IMG/VR virus record: IMGVR_UViG_3300009418_003129
Coordinates: 1 to 23,023 of that record
Source: a virus
Reading direction: 5' to 3' (one strand)
Length of the DNA stretch: 23,023 bases
Shown here: positions 1 to 21,867 of the stretch, in pieces
Numbering within the stretch: the stretch's first letter is position 1
How the letters are laid out: each line of letters starts with the position of its first letter
The notes under the pieces: generated by a model
What the model was told of the DNA's origin: nothing
Seen by the model: only the letters and a program-made list of their open reading frames with translations
Databases searched by the model: none
Made by a program: the position numbers and the translations under genes

Positions 1-3000
1 ATACTGAATCAGTATCTACACCTCTACCTATGTCACCACCGCCAATAATAATACTATTCGTTAGTCCATCAGCGGCATTGGATAGCGCGGTATGTCCGAT
101 AGCAATGTTCTTGTGGCCATCAACAAGAGATTCGCCAGCGCTATTGCCGATAAGGAGGTTGCCATACCCAGCCTCTACTGCCACGCCAGCGTCAACACCT
201 ATAGCAAGATTATCATCACCAGTGGTAATCTGATTAAGGGCAGAGTGGCCCAGCGTGGTATTTTTAAATTGCCCCTGAGAAATTACATCTGCTCTAGAAT
301 CTGGCGTATGTCTCCCAGCATATGTGTTTTTATTATCATCAGCATAAAGAAGGCTACCGTCAGTTACGTCCATTGAACTGTGGACTAAATCAAACTCATG
401 TCCCCCGTCGTCCATGAAGTATAGAGACTGTGTTTGATCTGGAACTACCTTTTCTTTAACGTATACCTTGCCGTATTCATCCGTTGTGGTATCTGGCTTT
501 ACGTCTTGCTGCTGAATGCTGATAGCTGCCGAGCCGGTAATTCCGCTTGATAACGTAAGCAACTCATTGGGCGTAGCCGTGTGTATTCCAACGAATTTAT
601 TATCATTGTCTAGGGAAATGATGATTTTACTTGAGCCATGCTTCCAAAGAGACATATCTGCTCTTCGTGTCAAAACAGAATATTCAAGCTCAACACCTTC
701 AGAGGACACCCCTAGAGGGTTATTATCAGAGGCCAACAGTTGCAAAGAAGCTTTATGCGTTCCGCCCAAAGTAGTATTACGGGCTATAGTTTCTCCCGTA
801 CTCTGAATATTAAAGATGGTTTCTGGAAGGATCGCATAAGCTACGTTTTTAATATCATTAATACCCACTAGCCCCGGATCACTAGACCTCATGACCGTTA
901 TTGCGTTGAGCGGGTGTGGCGAATCATCATAAGCAGAAATAGTTAATCTGTCCTTCTTCTGCCCTGTATATCCTACTACATCTTTCTCATCTATATTATC
1001 AATGCCAAATCCGGTAATATGGTCTCTAGGTGGGTCAAATTGCGTAGCTTGTTTCTTGTTCATCGTTCTCGTAACAAGCCGTTGACCAACAGTAACGCCA
1101 GAGCCTAGGTGTGAGTAACTAACATGATAATCACTGACGCCGGAAGATATGAAATTGACATCTGTAACGTTAGCAATGTTGCCTTCTGGACCAATTGGGT
1201 TTGGCGTAATGTGTGCTTCCTGAGCAAGGTAAACAACGTTATCTGACTCAATTATAGACGATATGTCTGATGAGCCGTCTTGGACGGTTTCCACAGCACA
1301 ACTGCCACCGACAGAAGATGGTCCTTGACCTTCATGGCTGTATAGTGACATGCCTAACCTAGGAGCTTCATAACCATCAACAGTAAGATCAGTACCTGTA
1401 CGCCCTCTAGTTGTGATCTCAAGAGGCGAGGCGGATTGACTTTCATACCTTGCGATTAAAACCTCATCTTGAGCAAGTAGGGTTTCGTCAGTATATGTGA
1501 TGAACCATCCGGCATACATTAAGTCATCAGCAATCGAGCCTTCTGGCCAATTGCCTAGAGCTTGATAGGTCACACCCGCCCCGTTAGATGATATAACCAT
1601 CTTGCCATTACCAAACGCATCATCGAATTTGGCCTGAGCCATCGCTACGCTATCGCTTGAAAAGACCGAGCAGGTGGTGGACGAACCATCAATAAATTGA
1701 ACGAATCTAATAGTATGACCAACATTATAAGGTTCGGCAATGTCTGGATCATACTGATCATTGTCTGCCCATATACTAAAGTCCGTTCCGGTGTGGTGGC
1801 CGTATTCCCGTCTTGGAGTATAATCCCATGCGAGGGTGCCTACAAGATTAGTGAGATCTGGCTCTATTGGATCGCTGGGGGCGTGACCCGCCGGATACGG
1901 ATAAAAGAAACTAATCTTGGTGAGGGAGGAAATGTTGTCATCAATGGAGGCTCGATCTGGCCAACCGGCGGCAATGGTGAAGAGTCTGTTTTGGCCCGCG
2001 CCATCAGTTAATGGCTTTATGGTAGGATTATGGTCATCATTACTTGCTATAATCTCTGATATAGCGCAGATGCCAACGCATTCCGGGAAACCTGTCGATG
2101 AATTTGTTGTTTGGTCCCACTGATAGCGGCCCGGTGTTACCGTCCATCCAGTAACACCAACCTCCAAGACCTTGGCGTTAAGAATGTCGCATATTTCTGT
2201 CTGAGTTGCGTCATAAGGTATGTCAGGTGTCGAATGAATAACATCATCCCATTCTGTCCTAAATCTTATCTTCCATGACCCACCCGTTGCCGCAGTCCCG
2301 GCGTTGATGTAAAAGTAATCCGCAGTGAAGGGCGTGGTGTCATCGGTGTGCGAGCCGCCGCTGTCGTAGTTTCCCGGTGCCATGAATGAATGAACGAAGT
2401 ATTTTCTAACTTCGCTTCCGCTACCACCTAGGGTCAAAGCTGTGCCATCGCATGTAATCTGCGGAAGATCTGTATTAGCCTTAGTTCCAACAAATGTAAC
2501 CGTCCACGACCCCCCGTCATTTCCGGTAACAGCAACGTCGTCCACTGCTATGTTTGAGAGAGCCTCAAGCGCAGTTTGAACTGTAGCCGAAGATGCATCA
2601 AAGGCAATAGCGGCAGTTGGGCCTTCGCCATCAAATGATAGAGTAAACGTTCCGCCGGTAGCATTAACCGTTATTAACTGAACTTCGTTCTGACCAGCCT
2701 CGCCAGTTCTAATAGTATCGTCAGTCTTTTGTATAAAGATACCATAGCCGGGGGAATGGCAATTAATCAGCGCAAGATTATCTCTGCCAATAACCCTATC
2801 TGTCTTGAGATGGCCGCTTGCAGCAATATGCACACTGATATTGCTATTCCACGACGATCTGGTATAGGGCGTATCTGCTTCTAGGCACTCCAAGGTGGTG
2901 TCTGGAGCGCGATACACCCACTCATAGTCTCTTCTATAGTTAGTACCGCTAGACTGAAGAACTATTCCGCCGCCCTCTATCTGCTGATCCTGCAAGAATC

Positions 3001-10026: not shown

Positions 10027-12021
10027 TTAGTAGATATCTTTTACGCCGTCCACAAACCAGTTTGGTCCCGAATATGGGTTTTCATCCTGTTTTGCTTTAT
10101 AGGTCTTTCCTTTCACGGCAAACCCTCCATAAAAGTTATACTCTTGCTCTGAGGGCATTCTTTGAAGGACTCTAGCGGACATGTTAGCCATAAGAAGTGC
10201 AGAGTATCGATCCTTACGCATCTTACGCTTCCTACCGGCGCCCACAATAACTTCTGGAGTATCCCACCTGTCTCTGCCGCTTGGGGTTTGGGTCATTGAT
10301 ATCATAGACAACTCATCTTTAAGTTCCTCAATATCCATAACGCATTCTTCCAAGGTGTCAAAGTGCCTATTTATAATTGAGTCTTCGGCGTGTGATAGCC
10401 CTAAGCTGACCGCATCGAAAAACGGAAAAATTAATGCCTTGTCTTCAAAATCTTTCCTTAGCCCATGATTAGCTTCGGATAACCAGTCGTATTTAGCAAA
10501 TTGACACATTTCTAGAATGTGTAAGCCTCTCTCATCATCTGTGTCGGCCTCCTTGTCTTCATTTATAACAGGCCAAATAGGAATCTCGCCCTCCTGTATT
10601 TTGTCATTGTCATGCAGGGATTCCATAACTGCAATTCCGCCGCCTTGAGCATCCATGGCTATATGTATGCACGGAAACAATCTCATTAGGTCTCTAATTT
10701 TTCTGGCGCAGTACGCATAAAAATCCGTCTCTGAAGAATGCCCCTTCTTTACCTTCTCGCGGTGCTCTGATCTAGTGGTAGTCCAGCAATGAACAATTCT
10801 CCGATGACTTGGGTGGACTTCCAAGACAACTATGCTGAAATTGTCTACCTCGGAAGCGGGGTCAACGCCAAATATGTATCTCGCCTTCCGGTCTCCTAGC
10901 AGTGACGCTTCAAAAAATATCTCCTCCCCATTGTTGTCTTTGATAACGTTCTCATTGGTGATAACGCATGATTCGATTAGAGACCTCTTAAAGAATCCTT
11001 GGGAGTCTCTAGTAAAACACGCCCCAAACTCCATTTGATAAATCCCCGTGTGAACAGTCGCTTTGGAGCGAGCCACCTGAGCAGCATCCATGAAGCCCGG
11101 AGGAAGAATTTCATAAGGTATGCGTATAATTGAATATTGCTTCCAGTCAAAGTCCTCTGGCGGATCTTCTCCACCAAAAACTTCTCTAAGCTTAGAGCGG
11201 CGTCCCCCGCTTTTAATAATAGATTTCCACTTCTTCCAATATTCAGAAAAGTGATTAAAATCGTAATAGGCCGTACCAGAAATAATAATCTGATTATCCT
11301 TACTTTCAGAAATATAGCTCGATTCTTCCTCTACCTCCACGCCAAGTTCAAACGCTTTCTTTCTTGCTGCCACCCTTTTTACATTATCTATCGGATCAGC
11401 CGTAACAGCAGCAAATCCGGCTACCACTGTTTCAAAGATGTCTCTAGGTATAGAAGCAAATTCGTCACTAATAATATCATTTGCTCGTTGTCCACGAATT
11501 TTTTGTCCGTCGCCAAGGGGCAGACATGTAACAGTACTTTCATTTAGTCTCATCACGCATCGATCTACGTCTCTACGAGGTCCGCTAGTACTGCCACATA
11601 TATCCCTTAATATTGGAGCATTTCTCCATATTGTCTCCATATATTCAAATAAGATCTTTGACTGTCTAAACGCAGCGCCGACGACGACTACTTTCCTTCT
11701 AGGTAATAATAAAGCTCTTAAAATGGCGTATAGAGAAAGCACGAATGACTTTCCAAAGCCACGACTAGCTATAAGGATAGGAAATTTTCTGTTCCACATC
11801 TCATACATCATCAACGCCTGAGAGGGCAACAGTTGAATATTTAGGATGTGCTTACATAGGAAAGAAAAATATTCTGGCTGCGTCATAAGCCAAGCTAGCT
11901 TAAGATGGTAATCTTCTTCACGGGGCTTGAGAATAAGGGTCGGATTAAATATGTTCTTGTCTGGGATATCTAATCCTAGCCACGCATCATCTATCTTCTT
12001 TAAGCTAACTTGCTCTGTCAT
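10027..12021 (-). CDS. terL: Terminase large subunit
   Basis: 664 aa. The ATPase domain has a Walker A-like ASRGFGKS (residues 85-92) and a Walker B region NDIISDEFA (181-189, with D186/E187). The C-terminal RNase H-like nuclease has acidic residues in YIFGVDPASEVDNFSIVVL (D387) and CIHIAMDAQGGG (D457). A third acidic residue further on was not fixed. It drives genome packaging into proheads and cuts concatemers. The gene is 19 bases downstream of the oxygenase gene and 59 before the portal. The start signal is weak (GGAAAAATG), so reading-through from the sugar genes is plausible. No small terminase gene is recognised in the window. Confidence 0.95.
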   Translation of the reverse strand: MTEQVSLKKIDDAWLGLDIPDKNIFNPTLILKPREEDYHLKLAWLMTQPEYFSFLCKHILNIQLLPSQALMMYEMWNRKFPILIASRGFGKSFVLSLYAILRALLLPRRKVVVVGAAFRQSKILFEYMETIWRNAPILRDICGSTSGPRRDVDRCVMRLNESTVTCLPLGDGQKIRGQRANDIISDEFASIPRDIFETVVAGFAAVTADPIDNVKRVAARKKAFELGVEVEEESSYISESKDNQIIISGTAYYDFNHFSEYWKKWKSIIKSGGRRSKLREVFGGEDPPEDFDWKQYSIIRIPYEILPPGFMDAAQVARSKATVHTGIYQMEFGACFTRDSQGFFKRSLIESCVITNENVIKDNNGEEIFFEASLLGDRKARYIFGVDPASEVDNFSIVVLEVHPSHRRIVHCWTTTRSEHREKVKKGHSSETDFYAYCARKIRDLMRLFPCIHIAMDAQGGGIAVMESLHDNDKIQEGEIPIWPVINEDKEADTDDERGLHILEMCQFAKYDWLSEANHGLRKDFEDKALIFPFFDAVSLGLSHAEDSIINRHFDTLEECVMDIEELKDELSMISMTQTPSGRDRWDTPEVIVGAGRKRKMRKDRYSALLMANMSARVLQRMPSEQEYNFYGGFAVKGKTYKAKQDENPYSGPNWFVDGVKDIY

Positions 12022-12040: not shown

Positions 12041-12718
12041 CTATTTACCACAATGGAGCCTAACGACCAGTCTTTCTTTGCCTTCTGCTACACACCCCCC
12101 TTTATGAAAGGTGTTTGTATCAAATACAACTAGTGTCCCTGCTGATGCTTCAACTGGTTCTGCGGGATACTCTGTAAAGAGGGTTGGATAATCTATTTCT
12201 ATCCTGTTTTTTACTTTATCATAGCTATTAGTATTATTCCACGCCTCTTGTCTCAGCGATTTGCCCTGTTGTCTTGAACCTACAGAACAGCTAAACGCTC
12301 CGCAGCTTTCATCTATGTCTGTTAGGTATATGAAGAACTTTAAGCACCAGTCTCTATCAAAATGTAGCCATCCGTTTCTAGCTAGTTCTCCTGTAAATTT
12401 GTAATCATGTGTAGCATAAACATTCTTGCCGTAACCTCTAGCGTTGCCAGAATATTGTTCATGCAGTTTTCTCATCCAGTCTTCATTGTATACATGTGAG
12501 ATTATGCTGTCGTCAGGAAAGGTACGCAACGCATCACCCCTGTAATTGCGGCCAAATTCATAATGGCTCGCTTTGCTTTGACATTTGCCCAGTATATCGT
12601 CATGTAACTCTTGTAAAATGTCGCCGGATAGGTAGCGCTCAATTGTGAACACTCCGTCTGACACTAGCGTGTCATGCATATGAGATATTGTATCTCTTAT
12701 TGTAAGTGTTTTTATCAT
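12041..12718 (-). CDS. PhyH-type Fe(II)/2-oxoglutarate oxygenase
   Basis: 225 aa. The facial triad is visible: H119-F-D121 in GWLHFDRDW and distal H205 in FDTNTFHKGG, with R216 eleven residues later as the likely 2-oxoglutarate ligand. WCLKFFIYLTDIDESCGAF (hydrophobic strand plus D.....G.F) and ASAGTLVVFD are standard for phytanoyl-CoA dioxygenase-like enzymes. These hydroxylate small molecules or glycans using 2-oxoglutarate and O2. The substrate is unknown. The gene lies 10 bases after the AroE-like gene and 19 before terL, so it closes the sugar block, and a glycan or sugar-precursor hydroxylation is a reasonable but unproven guess. Phage 2OG oxygenases can also act on nucleic acid bases or proteins. 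Confidence 0.85.
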   Translation of the reverse strand: MIKTLTIRDTISHMHDTLVSDGVFTIERYLSGDILQELHDDILGKCQSKASHYEFGRNYRGDALRTFPDDSIISHVYNEDWMRKLHEQYSGNARGYGKNVYATHDYKFTGELARNGWLHFDRDWCLKFFIYLTDIDESCGAFSCSVGSRQQGKSLRQEAWNNTNSYDKVKNRIEIDYPTLFTEYPAEPVEASAGTLVVFDTNTFHKGGCVAEGKERLVVRLHCGK

Positions 12719-12728
12719 TTCGTTATCC

Positions 12729-13382
12729 CTATACCCCTATGGGAAACTCTAGGCCGGTATACAGCTTGAATTGATGTGACGCTTGCATGTTGGCTAGCTG
12801 TTTACCTGTGGCTGTTTGCACTATACAATCAATTATAGTATTATTATCGCTCACTATAGATTTCAAATTTTCAACAGGTGTGCAGTTGTATACTACGCCA
12901 TTATCTATATTATCTAATTGCTCCCAATTTTTTCTAGTAATATTGACATAGTGGATATTAAGATCTTCTGCTGCCGCTTTAACTGCCGCTGCATATCCCC
13001 CGTTTCCTATGATATAAAAATTATCATGGTTCTGAAAGTCTTTAAGGTAATCTAGAGCAGCCAAATAGTCTGTGTTGTATGCTTTTAATTTGTTGTTTTC
13101 ATTTATGACTGTGTTTGCCGCTCCTATCCGACCACCGTCCCAGATCTCATCAACATACTCTAATACCTCTTGTTTAAACGGCATAGTTACCGCAAAGCCC
13201 TTTACGTCCAGTGTCTTCACAGATTTTATAGCATCCTCTATGCTGTCCACGGAAAACGATTTGTAGATCTTGTTTAAGCCGTAGTAATAAAATGCGGTGT
13301 TCATCATTTGGCAACCGGTATTACCAGCAGTCTTGGCAAATGAACAATATACCTCTGTATCTTTATTGATCCACAAGTTCAT
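12729..13382 (-). CDS. Compact shikimate/quinate dehydrogenase-like (AroE-like) oxidoreductase
   Basis: 217 aa, shorter than typical AroE (about 270). Hallmarks appear in order: GFAVTMPFK with catalytic Lys70, GAANTV with Asn90, YNTD with Asp105, the NAD(P)-binding IIGNGGYAAA (124-133), NCTPV (167-171, like NATPVG) and a C-terminal QFKLYTG. The N-terminal serine motif SxS that holds the shikimate carboxylate is altered (CSFAKTAGNTG), so the substrate may not be shikimate. It overlaps the GatZ-like gene by 20 bases and sits inside a sugar operon with no other aromatic-pathway gene. A role in oxidising or reducing a polyol or cyclitol for the glycan is inference. SD AAGGGA lies before the ATG. 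Confidence 0.82.
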   Translation of the reverse strand: MNLWINKDTEVYCSFAKTAGNTGCQMMNTAFYYYGLNKIYKSFSVDSIEDAIKSVKTLDVKGFAVTMPFKQEVLEYVDEIWDGGRIGAANTVINENNKLKAYNTDYLAALDYLKDFQNHDNFYIIGNGGYAAAVKAAAEDLNIHYVNITRKNWEQLDNIDNGVVYNCTPVENLKSIVSDNNTIIDCIVQTATGKQLANMQASHQFKLYTGLEFPIGV

Positions 13383-14319
13383 TTAAATCCCTTAGTTTGT
13401 TTTTTATAACCCCATTGATTTTATCGTCTATGTCCAGTTTAATGAGTAAAAACTCATCATCAGAAAGAACATAATGGCCACACACCTTTATCAATTCTTT
13501 CTTGTTGTCTTCGGGAACAAAATCCTCGTCAACCCATTTTCTCCATCTGTTTGAATGATAACAAATTTGATAAAAATCTTCTATGTCATCACCCATTTCG
13601 TCCAAATAGCACAATGTTTCAAGCTGGCCCAATTCAGGGGCTATGTTTATTGCGTCAAGGCCCAAGTCAAACCTAGCTTTATATTCGTTGTTGGATAAGT
13701 AGTCTCCGTTGTGTTCTTTGCTCTTCTTGCCAAATTTTTTACACACCGCGATCATTTGTTCTAAATCGTTTGAATTGAAAGCTCCGGTATTAATTCTCTT
13801 GCCCAAATTCAACCCAACTCCAGATTGTATGGTTACGTATTCTATCGCGTCAAACATTTCTGGTAACAACTTTGACTCTAAATCTGATAAAAATGTACTT
13901 AATGATGCAGCACTAAACTTTCTTATGGCCTCTTCTGTACCAACTTCAAATCTGATATGTCTATTGGTGTAATAGCAAAATGCTATATTGCTTATACATT
14001 CTCTAAGTCCTTCATGATATCCAGAATATTTGACCCAAGGGTCTATGTGGATTATCTCTACATTTTCGCAGTCTGCTTTTAGGGACTCGTATCCGTCATC
14101 ATCCATATAGCCCTGACTCGCCCCCGCGTGGTCTCTTTCAATTGTAACTCGTCCATTTACATACTTAGCAAACGTTTCAGTGGTCCAGTTGTTGACATAT
14201 CCACCACTATAATCAACCTGTCTTCTCGAAGGAATGAAGCCAAACACATCGCCAAAATCTATAACTGCATCGGTTATATTTAGAGACATCGGCCCTATAA
14301 AATATTTGATATTATTCAT
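13363..14319 (-). CDS. GatZ/KbaZ-like aldolase-barrel protein
   Basis: 318 aa from ATG 14319, which overlaps the upstream stop (ATGAATAA) and has AAGGA just before it; a longer frame begins at 14367 but extends needlessly into the upstream gene. Similarity to tagatose-bisphosphate aldolase subunit GatZ/KbaZ is seen in ERDHAGASQG (61-70; GatZ GGDHLGP), IIHIDPW (89-95; KIHLD), FEVGTEEAI (124-132; VIGTEV), VTIQSGV (162-168; VVQPGV), KEHNGDYLS (201-209; EAHSTDYQT) and GLDAINIAPELG (220-231). A GPMSLN/IPSRRQVDY opening is its own. No GatY-type catalytic partner is near. It may act alone as an aldolase or epimerase on a sugar phosphate; the substrate is unknown. Confidence 0.7.
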   Translation of the reverse strand: MNNIKYFIGPMSLNITDAVIDFGDVFGFIPSRRQVDYSGGYVNNWTTETFAKYVNGRVTIERDHAGASQGYMDDDGYESLKADCENVEIIHIDPWVKYSGYHEGLRECISNIAFCYYTNRHIRFEVGTEEAIRKFSAASLSTFLSDLESKLLPEMFDAIEYVTIQSGVGLNLGKRINTGAFNSNDLEQMIAVCKKFGKKSKEHNGDYLSNNEYKARFDLGLDAINIAPELGQLETLCYLDEMGDDIEDFYQICYHSNRWRKWVDEDFVPEDNKKELIKVCGHYVLSDDEFLLIKLDIDDKINGVIKNKLRDLNELVDQ

Positions 14320-16213
14320 GGTCCTTTTGCAACATCTGATGTGACTTGAAAAATAACAAATCTCCAAGCTCTCTCTCGTGGAGGGGAGACATGTTTAAAA
14401 ATATAAGGGAGGTAATCGTCTTGATTTTTTCTAAATCGTATCCGTTGTCTACAATCCATTGTTCGTACACCAACTTAAACTCATCCAGCTTAGGGTTAGA
14501 TTTATAATTGTAAGTTACTATTTCTTTGTTAACATAGCAAGAAAAATTGTTACTATCTTTCATTGAGGAATAAGACATTAAGATTCCGCCATACATTTTT
14601 GCTAAGTCGTAATACACATCTCCAACGACCTGTCCCGCGAAATCTTGTCTCCAGTCTAATAGATAAAATCTACCGCAATCTGTGTGAATTACATTGTCAA
14701 ATTGTAAATCTCCATGAAACATTTCTGTTGGTAGGCCCTTGCTCAGACGGCTCCATTTAAAATCATGCAATAAATCTTTAATGGAACTTGTTTTCACTCC
14801 GTTAACGATATGGCTGTTTAAATATGACTCCCCCCTTTCCGACAAGAACAATTTTAGTCTATCTAGAGTTTTATCCTTGTAGAATAATAAACAATCCTTT
14901 CTAATATCCTTATCAATCGGTTGCCACATATTATTCTTCATAAAAGATAGGAACTTTTTCCAAATATCGATATCATTGCAATCATATAAAGTGTTTCCTT
15001 CTAGCCACTTGTATGAAAACAAGTTGTTCCCGCAATAAACCACATCCGGGGCCAGCCCCCTTAACTTTTTGGCTCTCTCTACTCGCCCACTAATGAATTT
15101 GTCGTCTGAAGACAGTTTGATGAAATTGTTATCAACTCTGTAAAGAAATTCTCCGCTATTTTTAGGGATGCTATACCTCACATTATCGTCGAATGTTTTT
15201 TGGGCATGCAAATAATTTTCTACCGTTCCGATGTCATACCAATCAAACATGTGGCCTTTCAGTGTTGAATATTTATCAGTGTTGTAGTAAGCGCTAACAA
15301 CCTCCACGCCCTCCAATTCCTCCCAAAAGGTTTTGTAGTCATAAACTCCGGCCAACCCAATGAATGCATAATCATATCCATCTTCAGACTTATCTTTAAA
15401 ATCAGTTATGTCTCCATTTTTGACATTTGCGGTGGAATATCTACTTGGAATACTCGTGGGGTAAAGGCCGAGCCAATCATAATCTACAGGAGGAAGGTCG
15501 TTTATAATAACTACATCTGCCGCCGCCCAAATAAATGGTCTCTGTAAATGTCTTTCGGCCTGTTTAATTGAATACCCCGGACCAGTTCCCTCCCCCTCAT
15601 ATTTGTCAACCGTGACAAAGGTAAAGTTTCTGTCTGGATGGGCCGCATCGCAATACTCTTTAACCATGTCTCCCCTATGCCCTAATACTATAATGATATC
15701 ATGGTCTTTTGAAGTTTTATCAATGAGGTGAGAAATAATGGCCTTATTATTTAATGGTAACAGGCCCTTGTTTATGTGGTTTGAAAAGTCGGCCAATCTA
15801 TTGCCGATTCCCGCTGCTAATATACACAACGCTGGTTTCGTGTGCTCGTGATCTATTCTACCAGAGCTACGAAAAGAATCATCTGAAATCCTAATCACGT
15901 CATCAACTTCGGGTGTGGAAGCTTCTTGTAAAATCACATCAGTTATTGCTATAATCCTATGTTTTCTTGGCGGTACAACAGTAAAGAATTCGCCAGCCTT
16001 CATTACTGTCTTTTCTACTACGCCTTCGTCGTTTTCTAACCAAACTTCAGCTGTGCCTTCAATTATATAGTTTGTTTCTAGCTTTTGCTCATGGTATTGG
16101 TAGCTTGTTTTTTTTCCAGCGTTAATATGCAGCCTCTTATAACAATACCGGTGGTTCAATTCTAGCCAAAGCTCTTTCCCCCAAGGCTTGTATACTGTTT
16201 TACAGTTCGACAT
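14312..16213 (-). CDS. Trifunctional cupin / sugar nucleotidyltransferase / APH-type kinase fusion
   Basis: 633 aa. Start 16213 is chosen because GGGAG precedes it; the longer frame from 16228 has a poorly spaced site. Residues 1-105 are a cupin like the C-terminal isomerase part of ManC (KPWGKELWLELN, QYHEQKLETNYIIEG, VPPRKHRI). Residues 128-345 are a nucleotidyltransferase (CILAAGIGNRL, Lys149 in INKGLLPL, AAADVVI, FDWYDIGTVENY). Residues about 355-600 are an aminoglycoside/choline-kinase-like phosphotransferase (FHGDLQFDN 499-507, FYLLDWRQDF with D520, GDVYYDLAKMY). A kinase plus an NTP transferase in one chain suggests phosphorylation and then activation of a sugar or alcohol; the cupin may isomerise or bind. 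It overlaps the HAD gene (14 bases) and the GatZ-like gene (8 bases). Substrate unknown. Confidence 0.87.
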   Translation of the reverse strand: MSNCKTVYKPWGKELWLELNHRYCYKRLHINAGKKTSYQYHEQKLETNYIIEGTAEVWLENDEGVVEKTVMKAGEFFTVVPPRKHRIIAITDVILQEASTPEVDDVIRISDDSFRSSGRIDHEHTKPALCILAAGIGNRLADFSNHINKGLLPLNNKAIISHLIDKTSKDHDIIIVLGHRGDMVKEYCDAAHPDRNFTFVTVDKYEGEGTGPGYSIKQAERHLQRPFIWAAADVVIINDLPPVDYDWLGLYPTSIPSRYSTANVKNGDITDFKDKSEDGYDYAFIGLAGVYDYKTFWEELEGVEVVSAYYNTDKYSTLKGHMFDWYDIGTVENYLHAQKTFDDNVRYSIPKNSGEFLYRVDNNFIKLSSDDKFISGRVERAKKLRGLAPDVVYCGNNLFSYKWLEGNTLYDCNDIDIWKKFLSFMKNNMWQPIDKDIRKDCLLFYKDKTLDRLKLFLSERGESYLNSHIVNGVKTSSIKDLLHDFKWSRLSKGLPTEMFHGDLQFDNVIHTDCGRFYLLDWRQDFAGQVVGDVYYDLAKMYGGILMSYSSMKDSNNFSCYVNKEIVTYNYKSNPKLDEFKLVYEQWIVDNGYDLEKIKTITSLIFLNMSPLHERELGDLLFFKSHQMLQKDHE

Positions 16214-16559
16214 TCTCAACTCCCGCATTCCTGTCTAGATTTATTGAATACACAGTATCTCTACTGCTGTCAGGCTTTCTGTCATTTATCAAAACCCTAT
16301 CTCCACCACCAATTCCCATCACTAGCTTATCATAAAATATACCTGTTTTTTGCAACTGTGCTTCTGTTTGTCTTCTACAGGATTCTCTTCTGCCGGTCAC
16401 CAAGATGATATTATATCCCTTTCTATCCCATTCAATTAATTTTTCTCGCGCCCCTTTCAATAAGATAGGCTCTTTGCTTATTTGTTTATGAAGGTCTCCG
16501 TGGTGATGCAAAAGGGTTCCATCAATATCACAAAAAATTGTTTTCATGGTCTTACTCAT
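16200..16559 (-). CDS. Small HAD-superfamily phosphatase
   Basis: 119 aa, a minimal HAD without an obvious cap. Motif I is FCDIDGTLL (Asp11, Asp13), motif II ILVTGRRE (Thr55), and motif IV VLINDRKP (Asp93). A basic residue for motif III may be Lys78. Such enzymes remove phosphate from sugar phosphates. Within this cluster it could dephosphorylate the KDO-8-phosphate-like product (the role of KdsC), but it lacks the usual KdsC signature DVDGVLTDG, so that is only a possibility. The ATG follows the previous stop by one base (TAAGATG); a second ATG four codons in is an alternative start. Confidence 0.85.
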   Translation of the reverse strand: MSKTMKTIFCDIDGTLLHHHGDLHKQISKEPILLKGAREKLIEWDRKGYNIILVTGRRESCRRQTEAQLQKTGIFYDKLVMGIGGGDRVLINDRKPDSSRDTVYSINLDRNAGVENVEL

Positions 16560-16560
16560 C

Positions 16561-17346
16561 TTATCTAAAAAGTTGGTACTTCCAGTTAGGCGTTATCAAT
16601 GCGCCTTTTCCTAAAACTTTTTCAATATGCTCACGGCAAGCAAACGTAGGTCTGATTGAGTAGCTATGAATATTATCATAGAGAGCGCCAAATTGATCCA
16701 TTATGTGACTATCTCCTACAAACCAGTAATCGAATAAGGTGTAATCAATATCTATTCTACCAGTTCTTTTACTAGCATAGATTTTATCCTTTTCGAGTTT
16801 TTCGAAAGGCAGAGGTGTCAAAAATTTATTGTCGAATCTATTCAATAAAACAAAATCATATCTAAATCCTTGCTCGTCTTCGTACTGTTTTTTTAATTCA
16901 AGGGTGCGCTTAGTGGACCACCATCTACTTTTTGTTCTAAATGCCAGTAGTGCCAATTCCTTCAAAATATTATCCACCGTTTGTCTAGATGGTAACAACC
17001 CTTCATACCCAAACCTTGTGGATTCACTAATGTCCCATTTAGATATATCGCCTCCCTTTATTCCATATTCTTCTAAGTCTACTTCAAAGTTTGCTTGAGG
17101 AAGTATTTCGTGTTTGCGGGGTTTATAATGGTCTATAATCTCTTTTTCCTTATTTGTGGACCAACTATGAACAAATACCTCTGCTTCGTATTTATCTATG
17201 ATATTTTTTAAGTTTCTATAGGTCGGCAATATATCCTTATTTGCTATATTTGATTCGTGAATTAATTCTTCACAAGTTCTAGCGGGTCTCGCGCTGGCAC
17301 AATTGTTATGGCCCACATTACCATATAGACAAATGGCGATTTTCAT
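16561..17346 (-). CDS. Glycosyltransferase-like protein of viral/capsule type
   Basis: 261 aa from ATG 17346, which shares ATGA with the upstream stop; a longer frame from 17388 is unlikely. It opens MKIAICLYGNVG, followed by EVFVHSWS (56-63), YKPRKHE, then ELKKQYEDEQGFRYDFVLLNRFDNKF (Arg170, Asp172) and LFDYWFVGDSHIMDQF. This series (I.L.G….., (F)VHSW, KK.YE...GF.YDFV...RFD, D.WF.G) is seen in poorly described glycosyltransferase-like proteins of capsule loci and large viruses. The RFD acidic residue may act like a DxD motif. It probably adds a sugar to the glycan made by this cluster. Donor and acceptor are unknown; no membrane segment is seen. Confidence 0.6.
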   Translation of the reverse strand: MKIAICLYGNVGHNNCASARPARTCEELIHESNIANKDILPTYRNLKNIIDKYEAEVFVHSWSTNKEKEIIDHYKPRKHEILPQANFEVDLEEYGIKGGDISKWDISESTRFGYEGLLPSRQTVDNILKELALLAFRTKSRWWSTKRTLELKKQYEDEQGFRYDFVLLNRFDNKFLTPLPFEKLEKDKIYASKRTGRIDIDYTLFDYWFVGDSHIMDQFGALYDNIHSYSIRPTFACREHIEKVLGKGALITPNWKYQLFR

Positions 17347-17936
17347 TGAACTACCCCATACATCCTTGGGCCACAAGGAAACAACCACCCAGTAGACTGA
17401 ACATCCATGACAACTTCATCACAGAACTCTTTAAAGGCCTGTGTTTCGCCCCCAATAGTATGTTCGTCTACTACTACCAGCGCCCCTTTGGACAAATATT
17501 TTCCACAGGCGCGAAGCGCTTCTATTGCTGGTAGGTATGCATTACAATCAATATACATCATGGATATTTTATGAGCTTTGCCAACCGTGTCTAAATATTG
17601 GTGTATTGTCTTTTTAATATCTCCGACAACTATTTGGCAATAATCCTCTAGTCCCTTTTTGGTTATTGTGTCAGCTACTAATGTTTTAGATATATTCCAT
17701 CTTTTACTTCGTTGGTTTCTTAGTACTCCTTCATTGGCACCTACAAGATCCTCTTCACAATGGCCATCAAAGGTATCAAAGCCTATGTACTGTTTTTCGG
17801 AGTTGCTCTCTTGCAGAAAGTGCCCGATGATAAATGTATTGTTTCCCTTATGCACTCCTAGCTCTATTATGTCTCCATTAATATTTTGGATTCTATTGAG
17901 AAGACTGTTGATATTTTGTGCTAAAACCTTCTGCAT
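17343..17936 (-). CDS. TylF-like SAM-dependent methyltransferase
   Basis: 197 aa. SAM-binding motif GDIIELGVHKGNNTF (residues 21-35) and GFDTFDG (52-58) are followed by ISMMYIDCNAYLPAIEAL and GALVVVDEHT (151-160). The IDCNxY and VVDEH acids correspond to the metal-binding positions of the macrocin-O-methyltransferase (TylF/MycF) family, which methylate sugar hydroxyls. The start overlaps 44 bases with the CMP-transferase gene and has AAGGGAC upstream. It most likely O-methylates a sugar in the glycan, a common way to cap or protect surface polysaccharide. Sugar specificity cannot be read from the sequence. Confidence 0.8.
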   Translation of the reverse strand: MQKVLAQNINSLLNRIQNINGDIIELGVHKGNNTFIIGHFLQESNSEKQYIGFDTFDGHCEEDLVGANEGVLRNQRSKRWNISKTLVADTITKKGLEDYCQIVVGDIKKTIHQYLDTVGKAHKISMMYIDCNAYLPAIEALRACGKYLSKGALVVVDEHTIGGETQAFKEFCDEVVMDVQSTGWLFPCGPRMYGVVQ

Positions 17937-18573
17937 ATTTTATGTCCCTTAGCGTGTTAATGTCTATAGATCTTTCTGGAGGAATAATGACACCCCTTAC
18001 ATTGCCCTTAAAGAAGTTTCTATGCTCTAGCAGGGAACCCCACTGCCCCATATAAAACGCTCCAGAAGGCTTGTAATACTTCTTTATGAACTTGCTGTTT
18101 GTGAGTCCGCATTCAAGGTTGTCAAAAATGGGTAGCACATTGTCCCCGCTCATCACACATGCTAATTGGATAGTTTCTGGTATTTGTGTCATGCTTATTA
18201 CAGAGTCTGCGTGTGGGAGTAAGCTGATGCCCTTGCGTATATCTTCAACACCCACAAAGGGGCACGTAGGTAAAAAGTAAGAGAACGTATCGCAATCGTC
18301 AACCTCGTCCATTAAGTCCATCATAGCATCCAGAACCGTTGCTTGCACTGTAGCGTGGTGCGCAGGGCGGTTGTGCCTAACAACGCCCAAGTCAGACACG
18401 GCATCAAAAATTCTGTCGTCATCAGTAGATACTAAAATATGATTAAAGCGCTCAGAAGCAACAACAGATTCGGTAATCCACCTTATCAGTGGCTTGCCAG
18501 CCAAGGGGTAGATATTTTTATCTTTGAGTCTAGTTGATCCACCCCTAGCTGGTATTACCGCCAAGCTTTTCAT
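17893..18573 (-). CDS. CMP-sugar (acylneuraminate/KDO-type) cytidylyltransferase
   Basis: 226 aa. The nucleotide loop is VIPARGGSTRLKDKN (6-20), followed by AGKPLI, ILVSTDDDRI (46-55), FLPTCPF (100-106), DSVISM (123-128), PSGAFYM (169-175) and SIDINTLRDIKYAE (202-215). This is the NeuA/PseF/LegF family pattern, which activates ulosonic acids with CTP to CMP sugars using Mg2+. The loop is closer to NeuA (ARGGS...KN) than to KdsB (ARY.STRLPGK). Next to a KDO-8-phosphate synthase and no NeuB, it may activate KDO or a derivative, or an acid made by the neighbouring aldolase. It starts in ATGA overlap with the DUF6356-like gene. Confidence 0.92.
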   Translation of the reverse strand: MKSLAVIPARGGSTRLKDKNIYPLAGKPLIRWITESVVASERFNHILVSTDDDRIFDAVSDLGVVRHNRPAHHATVQATVLDAMMDLMDEVDDCDTFSYFLPTCPFVGVEDIRKGISLLPHADSVISMTQIPETIQLACVMSGDNVLPIFDNLECGLTNSKFIKKYYKPSGAFYMGQWGSLLEHRNFFKGNVRGVIIPPERSIDINTLRDIKYAEGFSTKYQQSSQ

Positions 18574-18752
18574 AGTATTTTACGTAGCCTCTCGTTTATT
18601 TTGGTAGCAGACTCTACGAAGACAAATGGCAAGAAGGCGTGAACGAAACAAAGTACACCCCCCATAATCATGTTAATACTAACATAAATTGCCTTTCTAA
18701 AGTGTGTAAAATATGATACATTGTTTTTTTCAAGATGTTTAAGATCAATCAT
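18570..18752 (-). CDS. DUF6356-like small membrane protein
   Basis: 60 aa. It begins MIDLKHLEKNNVSYFTHF, then one hydrophobic span (residues about 21-47, INMIMGGVLCFVHAFLPFVF) and a basic tail KINERLRKIL. The pattern YF.H…A……...G….VHA..PF.F matches the DUF6356 family, small proteins of unknown role in Gram-negative bacteria, sometimes beside capsule genes. Good ribosome site GGGGGG before ATG 18752. It overlaps KdsA by 8 bases and the CMP transferase by 4, so it is tied to the sugar pathway. It might anchor the enzymes or act in export at the inner membrane (inference). Confidence 0.75.
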   Translation of the reverse strand: MIDLKHLEKNNVSYFTHFRKAIYVSINMIMGGVLCFVHAFLPFVFVESATKINERLRKIL

Positions 18753-19521
18753 AGATCCCCCCTACCGTTTTTGCTTTTTGAATTAAGGATTTAAGATCGT
18801 CCAAATGAATCAGACATTGACCGTCAGACACTGAATCGCTTGGTCTCGGATGTGTTTCTGCAAACACTCCATCGTAGTTAAATAAATCGGCAGCAACAAA
18901 GTATCTTCCGGCAAGCACCGGATCTCCCTGTGTGCCATGTACTGCTCTGGACCTTTGTGTTGAATGTGTACAGTCTAAGATCACTCGGTCATAATATTTT
19001 TTCAGTTCATCAACAATCCCAAAGTTGACAAACAGGTCGTGATACCCAAAGTTGGAACCTCTGTCACATACCCAAGCTTCACAGGACGGGTTGGTTTCTT
19101 TTACCTTGTCTACTGAAACAAGCAGGTTGTTTGGTCCTAGCCACTGACCCTTCTTAATATTGACTATTGGAAAATGTTTGGCAGACTCAACAATTAAATC
19201 AGTTTGTCTTGACAAAAATGCAGGAATTTGTATCACATCAATCAATCCTGCTAGCTGTTCTGCTTGCCAGCATTCATGAATATCGGTAGTAAAGCGTACA
19301 TTGGGATATAGTTCTTTGGCTTCTGCCCAAACTTCTTTTGCGTATTCTAGTCCGGGTCCGCGACCACCCTGTAGGGATGTTCTATTGGCTTTATCAAAGC
19401 TGGCCTTCATGTACCAGTTGTCATCCTTGTCCATGATGGAGTTAATTGCCCCCAAGCATTCCAAAAATAGGTCTTTGCTCTCAAGGGAGCACGGTCCCAA
19501 AATCCATACCTTATCTCTCAT
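18745..19521 (-). CDS. kdsA: 3-deoxy-D-manno-octulosonate 8-phosphate synthase (KdsA), metal-type
   Basis: 258 aa, close to the family length. It condenses phosphoenolpyruvate with arabinose 5-phosphate to KDO 8-phosphate. Signatures: GPCSLES (9-15), YMKASFDKANRTS (37-49, the KANR motif that separates KDO8PS from DAHP synthase), TTDIHE (78-83), IQIPAFLSRQTDL (97-109), NIKKGQW, CDRGSNFGYHDL (152-163), LDCTHSTQ (182-189), FAETHPRPSDSVSDG. Cys11, His186, Glu222 and Asp233 are all present at the positions of the metal ligands in the metal-dependent class (Aquifex type). The start overlaps the aldolase gene by 11 bases. A phage KdsA next to a CMP transferase suggests KDO or a relative is made during infection. 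Confidence 0.93.
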   Translation of the reverse strand: MRDKVWILGPCSLESKDLFLECLGAINSIMDKDDNWYMKASFDKANRTSLQGGRGPGLEYAKEVWAEAKELYPNVRFTTDIHECWQAEQLAGLIDVIQIPAFLSRQTDLIVESAKHFPIVNIKKGQWLGPNNLLVSVDKVKETNPSCEAWVCDRGSNFGYHDLFVNFGIVDELKKYYDRVILDCTHSTQRSRAVHGTQGDPVLAGRYFVAADLFNYDGVFAETHPRPSDSVSDGQCLIHLDDLKSLIQKAKTVGGIYD

Positions 19522-20392
19522 TTTTAATATCCCTGATCACTTCGGAAATTTGATTTATGCACTGGTCATCGCAGTTGGGCCAAGGGTTTCTATCGTTAAG
19601 GCATGTTAGGTTTAGTATCTTTAACGATGCTCGTAGAGACTTGTGCCACCCATTAGCCATGAAGACATCAAAGAGTCTAGCCTCTGTTTGTAAATGTTTC
19701 ATTTTGTCGTGACCAGCCAGAAATTCGTTTTCTATGTCTGGAAATAGATTGCCAACCCCAGCAAGTAAAGAATTTGCGCCTGCCGACTCCAAGAATGCAA
19801 GCCTTCTCATGCTTCCGCCTGCCACGATAACGTCGAGATTGGGGTTTAGGTGTCGGACAAAGTTGTAAGAAGCTTGCAGGTTGGGGTGTTCTTCTTTTAT
19901 ACCCGCCACATACCCCAAATCGTACAGCCTATTTATAATATCACAATCATAGTTCCAGTCTCCAGATATGCCAGACCTCATTTTTTGAGTATGCAAATAC
20001 ACGCTATCGCCAGCCGCTTCGCAAATACGTTGCAGATAATCAACGACTACATCTTCACCGTAAAATCTATCTGGATACAGCGCCATAAGCTTAGCATCTT
20101 TTCCTAGGTAGCTCCTTGAGGCGTGGACAAAATCACAAGCCTCTGTCGTGCTAGCTGGTGGAATGCCTAATATTTTTGCACCCTCAAAGGATTCAGATAT
20201 ACAGGCGTTAAGATCTATTATCTCTTCGGTTGCTAGAAGGTTAAACTGAGAAGTTCCAGCAGTAGTCATGACACACTGGGCGCCATGGGTTTTTAAATAC
20301 TTCAAATATACGACAGTTGATTCTAGCTCAAGGCGTTCCTCTTTGTCATAGGACGGGGGAATGGCTACAATGGATCGCGGCGTAGGAGTCAT
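19511..20392 (-). CDS. DHDPS/N-acetylneuraminate-lyase family aldolase
   Basis: 293 aa, standard size for the pyruvate-dependent class I aldolases. Lys166 in VAGIKEEH is the expected Schiff-base lysine, Tyr132 in VYLHTQKMRSG corresponds to the catalytic tyrosine, and VMTTAGTSQFNLLATEEI (41-58) stands for the TTGE pyruvate-carboxylate loop. VIVAGGSMRRL (188-198) is the usual late strand-loop. Members condense or cleave pyruvate with an aldehyde or sugar (DapA, NanA, KDG aldolase). Its partner substrate is unknown. It lies one base in overlap (TAATG) with the preceding transferase and 11 bases with kdsA, so it probably handles a keto-sugar acid of the same pathway. Confidence 0.85.
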   Translation of the reverse strand: MTPTPRSIVAIPPSYDKEERLELESTVVYLKYLKTHGAQCVMTTAGTSQFNLLATEEIIDLNACISESFEGAKILGIPPASTTEACDFVHASRSYLGKDAKLMALYPDRFYGEDVVVDYLQRICEAAGDSVYLHTQKMRSGISGDWNYDCDIINRLYDLGYVAGIKEEHPNLQASYNFVRHLNPNLDVIVAGGSMRRLAFLESAGANSLLAGVGNLFPDIENEFLAGHDKMKHLQTEARLFDVFMANGWHKSLRASLKILNLTCLNDRNPWPNCDDQCINQISEVIRDIKNER

Positions 20393-21054
20393 TATTCAAT
20401 GAACCTCTTGATTATGTTTAAACTGGTGATGGTTGGGGTCAAGAGAGAGGAGTCAATTTCCATACTGGTAGTATCTTTAATAGCACAAAATGTTGCATCA
20501 ACCAAGTCAGCGCTATGTAGTTTCTTTATTAAATCAATCTCTGATGCTACATCGTGATGGTATCCAGTGCCATCTTTACGTGTGTATTGCTTGTTTAACT
20601 GGTCACGTTTTTGTAAGGAGAGGCCAATCAGGAACGGCTTGATTCCTTTGTGCATGCAATCAGCCATATACGCAAAACCGCACCTGACACACTTTGTTAT
20701 TTTATGGTTAATCCCGTGCTTTCTCAAGATAGACTTCATTAGTTCGGTATTGTTACCAGCAAAGTTCTGGAAAATTACATTGTCTTTCTTTAGGTGTTCA
20801 TAAAAAGCATCTATATGATCTTCTGGAATCCCGAATTCCTTATGGTAGTTAGGTCTCCACTTAAGGGGCGGTAAATTTTTAGTATAGTTCTCGTAGATAT
20901 GACCGTTTAATATCTGACGAGTTGCGTCCCTCTTTCCGTAGTTGTTGTCAGGCAGCAGCATGTTGTGGCGTACAATGACATCAAAGCTATCTACCAGCTT
21001 GTTGAAATTGGCATGTTCGTACCTTCTGGAGCCACATATGATATAACTATCCAT
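20392..21054 (-). CDS. Sialyltransferase-like (GT29-like) putative glycosyltransferase
   Basis: 220 aa. The N-terminus reads SYIICGSRRYEHANFNKL then VDSFDVIVRHN (21-31), similar to the GT29 pattern GNS……..IDSFDVV.R.N. Later CVRCGFAYMADCMHKGIKPFLIGLSL (122-147) resembles the TG…….A…C..V.L.GF motif, and GTGYHHDVASEIDLIKKL (162-179) resembles the HD..E...I..L element of bacterial and viral relatives. Such enzymes move a CMP-activated ulosonic acid to a glycan. This fits the CMP transferase and KdsA downstream. Similarity is weak and read by eye, so another GT family or a glycan-modifying enzyme is possible. It overlaps the 57-aa gene by 8 bases. Confidence 0.5.
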   Translation of the reverse strand: MDSYIICGSRRYEHANFNKLVDSFDVIVRHNMLLPDNNYGKRDATRQILNGHIYENYTKNLPPLKWRPNYHKEFGIPEDHIDAFYEHLKKDNVIFQNFAGNNTELMKSILRKHGINHKITKCVRCGFAYMADCMHKGIKPFLIGLSLQKRDQLNKQYTRKDGTGYHHDVASEIDLIKKLHSADLVDATFCAIKDTTSMEIDSSLLTPTITSLNIIKRFIE

Positions 21055-21220
21055 TTATATCCCGCTCTTTTTCTTCCGCTTCTTCTTCGCTATCAAACGG
21101 ACCCCACAGTTGACCGCCATAAAAATAGTACCACCCACGACCATCATACCCAGTAGTACCATACTCAGGATAGCTACGGCCTTCAAAAGCCGGGTCCATT
21201 CGATAATATTCTACAGTCAT
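21047..21220 (-). CDS. 57-aa hypothetical protein, Tyr/Gly-rich
   Basis: Reads MTVEYYRMDPAFEGRSYPEY at the N-terminus, then GWYYFYGGQLWGPFDSEEEA and a basic/acidic helix. The segment W.Y….G…GPF.S.EEA is a common small fold in phage and bacterial proteins, but no function is assigned. The ATG shares ATGA with the ClpP-like stop, and its stop overlaps the next start by 8 bases, which supports it as a real, translationally coupled gene despite its size. Confidence 0.7.
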   Translation of the reverse strand: MTVEYYRMDPAFEGRSYPEYGTTGYDGRGWYYFYGGQLWGPFDSEEEAEEKERDING

Positions 21221-21867
21221 TTTAATTTTAGTCTATCTATTGAGCCATACTTTTTACTAGTGATCACACCATCCGCAAAACCGTGATACACCGCTTCATG
21301 TGGCGACAGATACCAATCACCGCACTGTAGCTTTCGACGTAAAAACGTCCTCACCTTATCACAAGTCAGAGCTTTATATCGCTCATTGAAAAATTTGCCT
21401 TCGACACATCTCTCTGCATAGATATCTAGCATCGTGTCTGCTCTAGATTTTTCAAAAGTAGCTAGCTTTTGGGCGTTCACGTAATCTCCACCACAATCGA
21501 TGCTGCCATAATGTAGCATCAAGTAAGTGTGAGGCATCATAATTCTTACATCAGCGGCCTGTAACACCACGCTACTCATTGATTCGGCTTGTCCGTAAGT
21601 CAAAATAGTTACATCAGATTTGCATAACTGGATGGCGTCATAGATTGCCATCCCATCCCCCCACTCGCCACCAATGCTGTGCATGTGAACCAGTATAGGA
21701 AGATTACTGACAGAGTCCAGAAATCTAAGGTTCTTAATAAACGTGGTAGCCATCCGGTATTCTACTCCGGGGTCTTCTTCAAAATGGCCATGATGGCCGT
21801 GCAAAAATATCTCTCGCCGCTTTGTGTCTAGATTATAAGAATGAATATCGCCCACTTGGTCAAGCAT
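21217..21867 (-). CDS. ClpP-like serine protease
   Basis: 216 aa. The crotonase-like ClpP fold is indicated by LPILVHMHSIGGEWGDGMAIYD (56-77), then GQAESMSSVVLQAADVR with nucleophile Ser96, TYLMLHYG with His119, and GDWYLSPHEAVYHGFADGV with Asp184, together the Ser-His-Asp triad. The usual AASMG is changed to AESMSS. In phages this family often serves head maturation, but here a separate prohead protease exists and this gene lies 14 kb away beside nucleases, so a regulatory or proteolytic role in the host is equally possible. The start is 2 bases after the previous stop with AGGA upstream. The N-terminus (GHHGHFEEDPGVEYR) is His/acid-rich. Confidence 0.88.
   Translation of the reverse strand: MLDQVGDIHSYNLDTKRREIFLHGHHGHFEEDPGVEYRMATTFIKNLRFLDSVSNLPILVHMHSIGGEWGDGMAIYDAIQLCKSDVTILTYGQAESMSSVVLQAADVRIMMPHTYLMLHYGSIDCGGDYVNAQKLATFEKSRADTMLDIYAERCVEGKFFNERYKALTCDKVRTFLRRKLQCGDWYLSPHEAVYHGFADGVITSKKYGSIDRLKLK

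Follow-up and report, generated by a model that had tools for sequence, protein, structure and literature searches.

Bacteria make the cytidine monophosphate (CMP)-activated form of 3-deoxy-D-manno-octulosonic acid (KDO) through the steps KdsD-KdsA-KdsC-KdsB, and the glycosyltransferase family GT29 is best known from animals and plants. The KDO transferases described in bacteria belong to families GT30, GT73 and GT99, and GT29 proteins have been reported in bacteria as well (PMC5811610); in plants, the transfer of KDO from CMP-KDO to rhamnogalacturonan-II has been proposed to be the work of a GT29 protein, RCKT1 (PMC11288761). Phages also carry surface-sugar genes: the glycosyltransferases of pelagimyophages have been read as changing the O-chain (PMC7029224), kdsA is among the viral metabolic genes of seamount sediments (PMC11018836), and the 179-kb marine virus TARA_ERS478052_N000008 encodes Gmd, WcaG, ManC, NeuA, KdsA and WaaG, read as lipopolysaccharide or capsule genes that exclude other viruses (PMC5332604). 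Such phage genes are usually listed singly. Here we describe a pathway-shaped set that recurs across many uncultured viral contigs, as found in the virus record IMGVR_UViG_3300009418_003129 (23,023 bases, analysed over its whole length and called the window below), where a cassette of glycan-type genes lies between the genes for the prohead protease and the terminase large subunit (terL). The window shares with TARA_ERS478052_N000008 the presence of NeuA-type and KdsA-type genes in one viral genome (PMC5332604).

Two viral modules joined in one cassette

The cassette consists of two separately recurring viral modules, A and B, joined together, and not of one module as an earlier reading of the DNA from its letters alone (the sequence-only reading) had assumed. 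Module A comprises a GT29-like transferase, an aldolase of the dihydrodipicolinate synthase (DHDPS) fold, a KdsA-like synthase, a DUF6356 protein, a NeuA/PseF-type CMP-synthetase and a PhyH-type oxygenase. Module B, located inside it, comprises a HAD protein, a fusion of cupin, nucleotidyltransferase (NTase) and kinase, a GatZ-like protein and an AroE-like protein.

A viral scan with the KdsA-like protein yielded 40 loci, 26 of them in one profile clade and 19 of these non-redundant. At score thresholds of our own choosing, a CMP-synthetase was present in 18 of the 19 and an aldolase in 15 (immediately upstream of KdsA in 14 of the 15), together with GT29 (13), a HAD protein of family c4 (11) and PhyH (10); at the same thresholds, the 14 viral KdsA loci that do not belong to this clade showed no aldolase, CMP-synthetase, GT29, HAD c4 or PhyH. 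Among 29 non-redundant viral aldolase loci from the KdsA- and aldolase-seeded scans, KdsA was found in 26 (adjoining the aldolase in 24), CMP-synthetase in 25, GT29 in 24, HAD c4 in 19 and PhyH in 18. L066, L070 and L074 were counted here as lacking KdsA; their contigs end in or just after the aldolase gene, and L066 shows the first 57 amino acids (aa) of KdsA. Gene order is also shared, with GT29-aldolase-KdsA-CMP-synthetase-PhyH running in L002 as in the window, and the DUF6356 gene lying between KdsA and CMP-synthetase in L045-L047. Three or more cassette genes were accordingly found together in viral contigs many times, and the expectation that the set would be unusual in phages held among 50,697 named-phage records, which contained four KdsA-like proteins, one GT29 relative and no DHDPS-like protein.

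Other viral contigs carry, as a group with the HAD gene, relatives of the fusion protein and of the AroE-like and GatZ-like proteins. In L164-L166 and L168-L170, cupin and NTase/kinase are separate genes with a short AroE-like gene nearby, and a SIS-domain protein and a split transketolase stand at the place of the GatZ-like gene (L164:7715-10011, with families scanned in L164); L166 has a GatZ-like gene in addition. Such clusters look like a heptose-type or cyclitol-type sugar route. The CMP-synthetase and PhyH genes touch in six non-redundant loci, and in the window the genes from the TylF-type methyltransferase to the AroE-like protein separate them; module B, with the methyltransferase and the gene at 17388-16561, was therefore probably inserted into module A. 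Module B genes are also carried by the marine virus AG-345-E15. GatZ-like and AroE-like proteins match unannotated named-phage records (Listeria, Salmonella, Escherichia, Enterococcus and faecal), among which the full-length AroE matches at 30% may be bacterial DNA.

The eleven minus-strand open reading frames (ORFs) of glycan type, from 21054 to 12729, are present as first described and lead through the PhyH oxygenase gene into terL. Measured from the longest starts, their junctions are -1, -11, -8, -4, -44, -46, +1, -29, -56 and -20, that is, nine overlaps and one 1-base gap. Two of the overlaps shrink with more probable starts: the ORF at 14367-13363 probably begins at 14319, since its relatives L157, L160 and L161 open with MNNIKYFIGPMS, and that at 17388-16561 probably begins at the methionine of MKIAICLYG, its relative L158 opening with MKVALCLYG. 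The gene chain exceeds eleven members, with a 50-aa ORF at its front and the PhyH gene at its end; the 50-aa ORF has no Pfam match and no clear relative among the other loci compared. Scans for promoters (46 promoter-like sites against 36.1, standard deviation 6.1, in shuffles) and terminators (5 terminator-like sites against 8.7, standard deviation 3.0) were uninformative.

Position between the prohead protease and terL genes

Between the prohead protease gene and terL the cassette forms an insertion, in a neighbourhood of head genes (head maturation protease, terminase and portal) on the same strand. From a TerL scan, which found at least 599 related viral stretches, 80 loci were taken for comparison. 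Protease and TerL were both present in 75 of the 80, and all 75 lacked room for an intervening gene, the projected gap being -49 to -10 nt; among these loci, a distance of 9.2 kb between the two genes was seen only in the window's phage. Five TerL loci fall outside this count: L177 (from the same phage, beginning inside the fusion gene), L182, L183, L209 (whose contig begins at TerL) and L220. Searches of named phage records with TerL and the capsid protein found no close relative. In a 135,790-base contig with a 75% identical TerL, KdsA is at approximately 46-47 kb and terL at approximately 123-125 kb, so that the module is about 75 kb away on the linear contig; with such a relative, the view of the virus as a compact phage is doubtful.

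A chimeric contig was ruled out as the source of this arrangement. The proteins of a second contig, L001, are 100% identical over both cassette edges, and those of a third (L156/L163/L177) are 100% identical from within the fusion gene to the tail gene, covering the terL side. That glycan-type genes are joined to the head operon, a central statement of the sequence-only reading, is correct.

Related loci hold other genes next to terL. An acyl-CoA dehydrogenase gene and a 91-aa gene occupy the slot normally taken by the prohead protease in L182 (7781-9912) and L183 (2-1332); the dehydrogenase matches PF00441, PF02770 and PF02771 in L182, and its L183 counterpart was judged by eye. Because of these two loci, the pre-terL site seems to accept cargo more than once. 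In L220 (9492-11983) an ERCC4 nuclease gene directly abuts terL, and the stretch examined showed no protease of ClpP type. A GDP-mannose 4,6-dehydratase gene (PF16363, 364.9 bits) is found at L182:5708-6799, just upstream of a small gene and nuclease genes, and in L001, from the window's own phage, the matching place is taken by a 366-aa member of the epimerase-like cluster c6. At the far end of the window (2-4114), an open-ended 1371-aa protein with PHROG matches to tail-spike-like and other virion proteins may be, from these matches, the receptor-binding part affected by a change in surface glycan.

Table 1. Genes of the cassette and its two edges, listed along the minus strand.
Feature	Position in window	Strand	Evidence
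Prohead (head maturation) protease, ClpP fold; upstream edge of insertion	21217..21867	-	PF00574 78 bits; phrog_94 head maturation protease 5e-24
50-aa ORF, Gly/Tyr/Glu-rich, function not assigned; between prohead protease and GT29-like gene	21047..21199	-	Translation; 8-nt overlap with GT29-like gene
Divergent GT29-type (sialyltransferase-fold) transferase; module A	20392..21054	-	Profile-profile match, fold, His/Glu motif
DHDPS/N-acetylneuraminate lyase (NAL)-fold pyruvate aldolase; module A	19511..20392	-	PF00701 30.5 bits vs cut-off 22.1
KdsA-like (KDO-8-phosphate-synthase-like) phosphoenolpyruvate (PEP) condensing enzyme; module A	18745..19521	-	PF00793 118 bits; best PDB entry for profile 1fwn 1.8e-74
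DUF6356 small protein	18570..18752	-	PF19883 56.1 bits; same place in L045-L047
CMP-ulosonate synthetase, NeuA/PseF type; module A	17893..18573	-	PF02348 83.5 vs 22.6 bits
TylF-type methyltransferase	17343..17936	-	PF05711 45.3 bits, PF13578 45.3 bits
Possibly glycosyltransferase; recurs with module B	16561..17388	-	phrog_13607 (unknown function) 4e-13; relatives in module B loci
HAD-type phosphatase; module B	16200..16559	-	PF25109, PF03767, HAD families; relatives 50-71% identical in module B loci
Cupin + NTP-transferase + APH-type kinase fusion; module B	14312..16228	-	PF01050, PF07883, PF12804, PF00483 above cut-off
GatZ/KbaZ-like protein; module B	13363..14319	-	A8 family, 9 sequences
Short AroE-like dehydrogenase; module B	12729..13382	-	PF08501 55.8 bits; NF009202 130 bits vs cut-off 306
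PhyH-type Fe(II)/2-oxoglutarate oxygenase; end of module A	12041..12718	-	PF05721 38 vs 22 bits
Terminase large subunit; downstream edge of insertion	10027..12021	-	phrog_2 3e-23

Protein families of the cassette and their origin

Pfam and NCBIfam scans bear out the KdsA-like, DUF6356, AroE-like and cupin/NTase assignments that had been made by inspection (Table 1). In the KdsA-like family, K44, A45, N46 and R47 (KANR), which we take to be the motif of KDO-8-phosphate (KDO8P) synthases, and C11, H186, E222 and D233, presumably the metal-site residues, are invariant in 23 of 23 sequences; the clade member L014 scores 244.7 against 242 for NF003543, the only KDO8P-synthase cut-off that it passes. 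The CMP-synthetase falls below the NCBIfam equivalog cut-offs for both PseF (117.2 against 205.7) and kdsB (28.5 against 155.2). All 16 of 16 PhyH sequences keep H119-x-D121, H205 and R216, which presumably form the HxD...H...R oxygenase motif with its metal ligands, and in 11 other non-redundant loci the PhyH gene directly follows CMP-synthetase (6) or KdsA (5). A member of HAD family c4, L056, weakly matches a capsule phosphatase model (20.6 against 162 bits). Two module B assignments were borne out in part: the kinase portion of the fusion is under the PF01636 cut-off in the window (17.6 against 23.2 bits) and over it in the relative L166, and the GatZ-like protein has no direct Pfam match, its relative L171 coming just under the PF08013 cut-off (24.9 against 26.7 bits).

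The naming of the first cassette protein as GT29-like likewise finds no direct match in Pfam, where neither the window protein nor its relatives L044 and L045 match PF00777, and gains its footing from profile-profile and fold comparison. Its family (A7) aligns in hhalign (97.9%, E 5.9e-13) with viral proteins of family A3, 11 of 11 of which match PF00777. The pair H167-x4-E172, which we take to be the VS motif of GT29 sialyltransferases, is invariant in 7 of 7 GT29-like proteins, and the aligned H172/E177 in 11 of 11 A3 members. The structural model reached a predicted local distance difference test (pLDDT) score of 86.7 and a predicted TM-score (pTM) of 0.86, with three of the five models staying at 64-69. 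In the VIA fold comparison, the first 23 rows, at Z 9.9 to 6.8, were sialyltransferase entries of the GT29 and the GT42 kind (for one of them the title says just 'a Glycosyltransferase'), with ST6GalNAc2 the best match (Z 9.9, root-mean-square deviation 2.9, 155 aligned) and the next unrelated entry at Z 6.3; the best Foldseek match was ST8SiaIII (E 2.3e-4, TM 0.48). The prediction that this protein is of GT29 type, with a sialyltransferase fold, is supported by these profile and model comparisons.

The aldolase model (pLDDT 94.7) has the DHDPS fold (VIA Z 29.8), and among the 50 matches listed, at Z 28.7-29.8, DHDPS and N-acetylneuraminate lyase were not separable. Lys166, which we take to be the Schiff-base lysine, and His134 are invariant in 25 of 25 viral sequences. 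His134 aligns with the catalytic tyrosine of DHDPS entries in the PDB, presumably the position of Tyr133 of DHDPS, so that the tyrosine expected of the DHDPS/NAL family is absent; of the 5 bacterial relatives found, the 4 that were compared have His134 as well.

These bacterial relatives bear on the origin of the module. A first aldolase scan, covering 84,980 species genomes, used narrow patterns that do not match the relatives later found, and none of its 13 candidates was a relative; the idea of a virus-only aldolase was dropped when a profile search recovered relatives in 5 of 680 sampled genomes: 4 of 295 in the class of G002, reached via an Owenweeksia record and taken as Bacteroidia, and 1 of 385 in that of G001, reached via an alphaproteobacterial record. 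All five adjoin a CMP-synthetase. PhyH lies within approximately 6 kb in three (L265-L267), beside the aldolase and CMP-synthetase in L265 and L267 and about 5 kb off on the other strand in L266; the remaining two loci spanned only 5 kb. NCBIfam scanning of L265 identified two synthases of NeuB/PseI type, one of which exceeds the NeuB cut-off, and NeuD-like and LegC-like genes under theirs, and genes similar to this NeuB-type cluster were recognised by eye in L266-L268. The viral KdsA and GT29 profiles matched nothing in the bacterial stretches examined. Aldolase, CMP-synthetase and PhyH therefore occur beside two different PEP-dependent synthases, and a distant bacterial counterpart of three cassette genes exists, but with NeuB-type synthases.

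For KdsA itself, a tree of 106 proteins has a 100/100 branch with the 30 viral-clade rows on one side and, on the other, 71 rows from bacteria and 5 from other viruses. The 71 were retained out of 80 bacterial loci (ORF kept by the caller and profile search, >200 aa), the 5 were hand-picked from 14 other viral KdsAs, and some long branches were flagged. Given this split, recent capture of the viral KdsA from bacteria is unlikely on sequence grounds. The 80 bacterial loci are the best of at least 564 related stretches, and they contained no aldolase, PhyH, GT29 or HAD c4 nearby, and two weak CMP-synthetase matches.

A proposed ulosonic acid pathway and its alternatives

On top of the families, folds, gene order, recurrence and insertion established above, we would propose the following substrate, product, acceptor, timing and benefit. 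On balance we slightly favour a reading in which the phage makes a CMP-activated, KDO-like 3-deoxy-ulosonic acid that the GT29 enzyme adds to a glycan of the host surface. The KdsA-like enzyme would condense PEP with an aldose phosphate, for which residue conservation makes host-derived arabinose-5-phosphate the most likely candidate, to give a 3-deoxy-ulosonate phosphate; a HAD phosphatase of phage or host would then strip the phosphate, the NeuA/PseF-type enzyme would make the CMP sugar, and the GT29-fold transferase would pass the sugar to its acceptor. PhyH probably hydroxylates the ulosonic acid and the class I pyruvate aldolase may remodel or make it, and these two steps could come in either order. 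Module B would supply a second activated sugar, suggested to be a heptose-like unit because relatives have a SIS isomerase and split transketolase in place of the GatZ-like gene. The place of the cassette next to terL suggests late production, together with the head genes, and the likely benefit would be an altered cell surface before lysis, with less superinfection and less re-adsorption to debris. As the module core recurs in many uncultured viruses, it looks like a means, belonging to the viruses, of giving cells (or the viruses themselves) a new coat, rather than like genes taken once from a bacterium.

Several observations weigh against a KDO-like product added by a conserved pathway. The window's KdsA-like protein is under all NCBIfam equivalog cut-offs (NF003543, 226.4/242; TIGR01362, 216.8/314; NF009109, 153.8/457), and the profile of the CMP-synthetase is far nearer to NeuA in the PDB (1eyr, 1.1e-42) than to the best KdsB (4.3e-16), a resemblance that a nine-carbon acid would suit better than KDO. 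A second pyruvate aldolase is foreign to ordinary CMP-KDO synthesis, and scans of the window proteins recognised neither an arabinose-5-phosphate isomerase nor a flippase or polymerase. Foldseek TM-scores for the GT29-like model are modest (0.43-0.50, for sialyltransferase matches ranked 1-20). The set is also incomplete in places: among the 19 KdsA-seeded loci the aldolase is missing in 4, a strong GT29 match in 6 (including L014, which still matches PF00777) and PhyH within the stretch in 9. In favour of the proposed reading are the invariant KDO8P-synthase residues and the NF003543 score of L014, the CMP-synthetase and GT29-fold assignments, the recurrence of the set, its insertion among head genes, the Bacteroidia clusters with aldolase, CMP-synthetase and PhyH, and the proposed role of RCKT1. 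On the same side, evolutionary distances correlate between KdsA and aldolase (r 0.80, n 25) and between KdsA and CMP-synthetase (r 0.88, n 24), in comparisons that had no control gene and indicate shared history of the genes only. In the near-identical KdsA-clade loci L014 and L026, which lack the DHDPS-type aldolase, an HpcH/HpaI-family aldolase (L014:6490-7182, L026:12193-12885) lies near the viral-clade KdsA, and genes of NeuB and GT29 type belong to the clusters. This substitution hints that a pyruvate aldolase step matters; the scan for a substitute covered these two of the loci lacking the aldolase, to which L003 and L015 also belong.

It is possible, though in our view unlikely, that the product is instead a nonulosonic (nine-carbon, sialic-acid-like) acid, made by a KdsA-like enzyme of changed substrate with the NeuA/PseF-type synthetase and GT29 as ordinary sialic-acid-type partners. 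Besides the affinity of the CMP-synthetase just given, the two NeuB-type synthases of the bacterial cluster L265 with its NeuD-like and LegC-like genes, the NeuB-family gene in L014 and one of the same cluster in L015 point this way; invariance of the KDO8P-synthase motif and metal residues throughout the viral clade, the KDO8P-synthase cut-off passed by L014, and Pfam and NCBIfam scans that recognised no NeuB-type gene or aminotransferase in the window argue against it. Placement of the acidic sugar on the virion rather than the host, with the cassette among head genes because its acceptor is a head or tail protein, strikes us as rather improbable. It would fit an insertion absent from the 75 relatives' loci that have both flanking genes, and the same-strand head genes that follow; however, the distance between module and terL on the 135.8-kb contig shows that the tie to head genes is not general, and other module A loci sit, by eye, among NAD-dependent epimerases, methyltransferases and UDP-glucose dehydrogenase-like genes of sugar pathways.

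The sequence-only reading took the set for a captured bacterial O-antigen or capsule cassette. As a recent event, we consider this quite improbable, and 'captured bacterial cassette' too simple a description. The proximity of aldolase, CMP-synthetase and PhyH in sampled Bacteroidia genomes would suit it, as would the G+C content, which drops to 0.37-0.38 in parts of module B against 0.42-0.43 in module A and approximately 0.42 in terL. Yet the viral KdsAs form their own clade, the partners are missing around bacterial KdsA apart from the two weak CMP-synthetase matches, the core is spread over many viral contigs, the scan of 84,980 genomes gave nothing with its narrow patterns, and the bacterial aldolases of the three best clusters are only about 29% identical to that of the window. 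Finally, we give almost no credence to ordinary host-takeover metabolism, in which the genes supply sugar phosphates and pyruvate and no surface sugar is made: enzymes of PEP, pyruvate and sugar phosphates are present, as is a split transketolase in some relatives, but for a CMP-synthetase and a GT29-fold transferase that recur within one conserved set, glycosyl transfer is the only use that suggests itself.

With low confidence, we speculate that the viruses own a route to a new 3-deoxy-ulosonic acid, neither KDO nor sialic acid, built by the KdsA-like enzyme, the His-for-Tyr aldolase and PhyH and added by the viral GT29, and that with the pathway moved into the head operon, virions or late cells would carry a sugar that no host makes. 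Notable in a phage pathway are the KdsA clade, which stands apart from the bacterial KdsAs compared, the GT29 transferase, and the aldolase subfamily, whose active site is altered. If the pathway is confirmed, large uncultured phages would bring an acidic surface sugar of their own to infection, with consequences for superinfection exclusion and re-adsorption and perhaps for the coating of virions, and the module would be a source of enzymes for making CMP-ulosonic acids.

A search of the open literature found no paper describing the module, a weak negative given that most subscription journals are outside that literature. The bacterial CMP-KDO pathway resembles the window in its KdsA-like first step with the KDO8P-synthase motif and in CMP activation; the window differs by a NeuA/PseF-type synthetase, a GT29-type transferase, an extra pyruvate aldolase and PhyH, and by having no recognised isomerase. 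In the nonulosonic-acid-type clusters of Bacteroidia (L265-L267) the aldolase is of the same subfamily, with His134 and Lys166, and its gene overlaps that of a PseF-like synthetase or lies no more than 20 nt from it; these clusters differ in their NeuB-type synthases (profile-tested in L265 only), and in the stretches examined nothing matched the viral profiles for KdsA and GT29. RCKT1 (PMC11288761) shares the GT29 family with the phage protein; it is a plant enzyme, and the two are paired by family. Among viruses, Synechococcus phage S-SCSM2R is like the window in its annotated KdsA, KdsB and 2-oxoglutarate-Fe(II) oxygenases, with a KdsA that is 34% identical and runs opposite to its KdsB, and no aldolase or GT29 annotated in the 12.7-kb stretch. 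For TARA_ERS478052_N000008, compared by description only, the portions of the report that deal with these genes name no aldolase, GT29 or PhyH partner, recurring module or head-operon insertion (PMC5332604), and that virus may carry the same module. Cyanophages and pelagimyophages likewise carry surface-sugar genes (PMC7029224). Phage surface-glycan remodelling is a kind of system already known, of which the recurrent module, here joined to a second one and inserted into the head operon, would be a variant.

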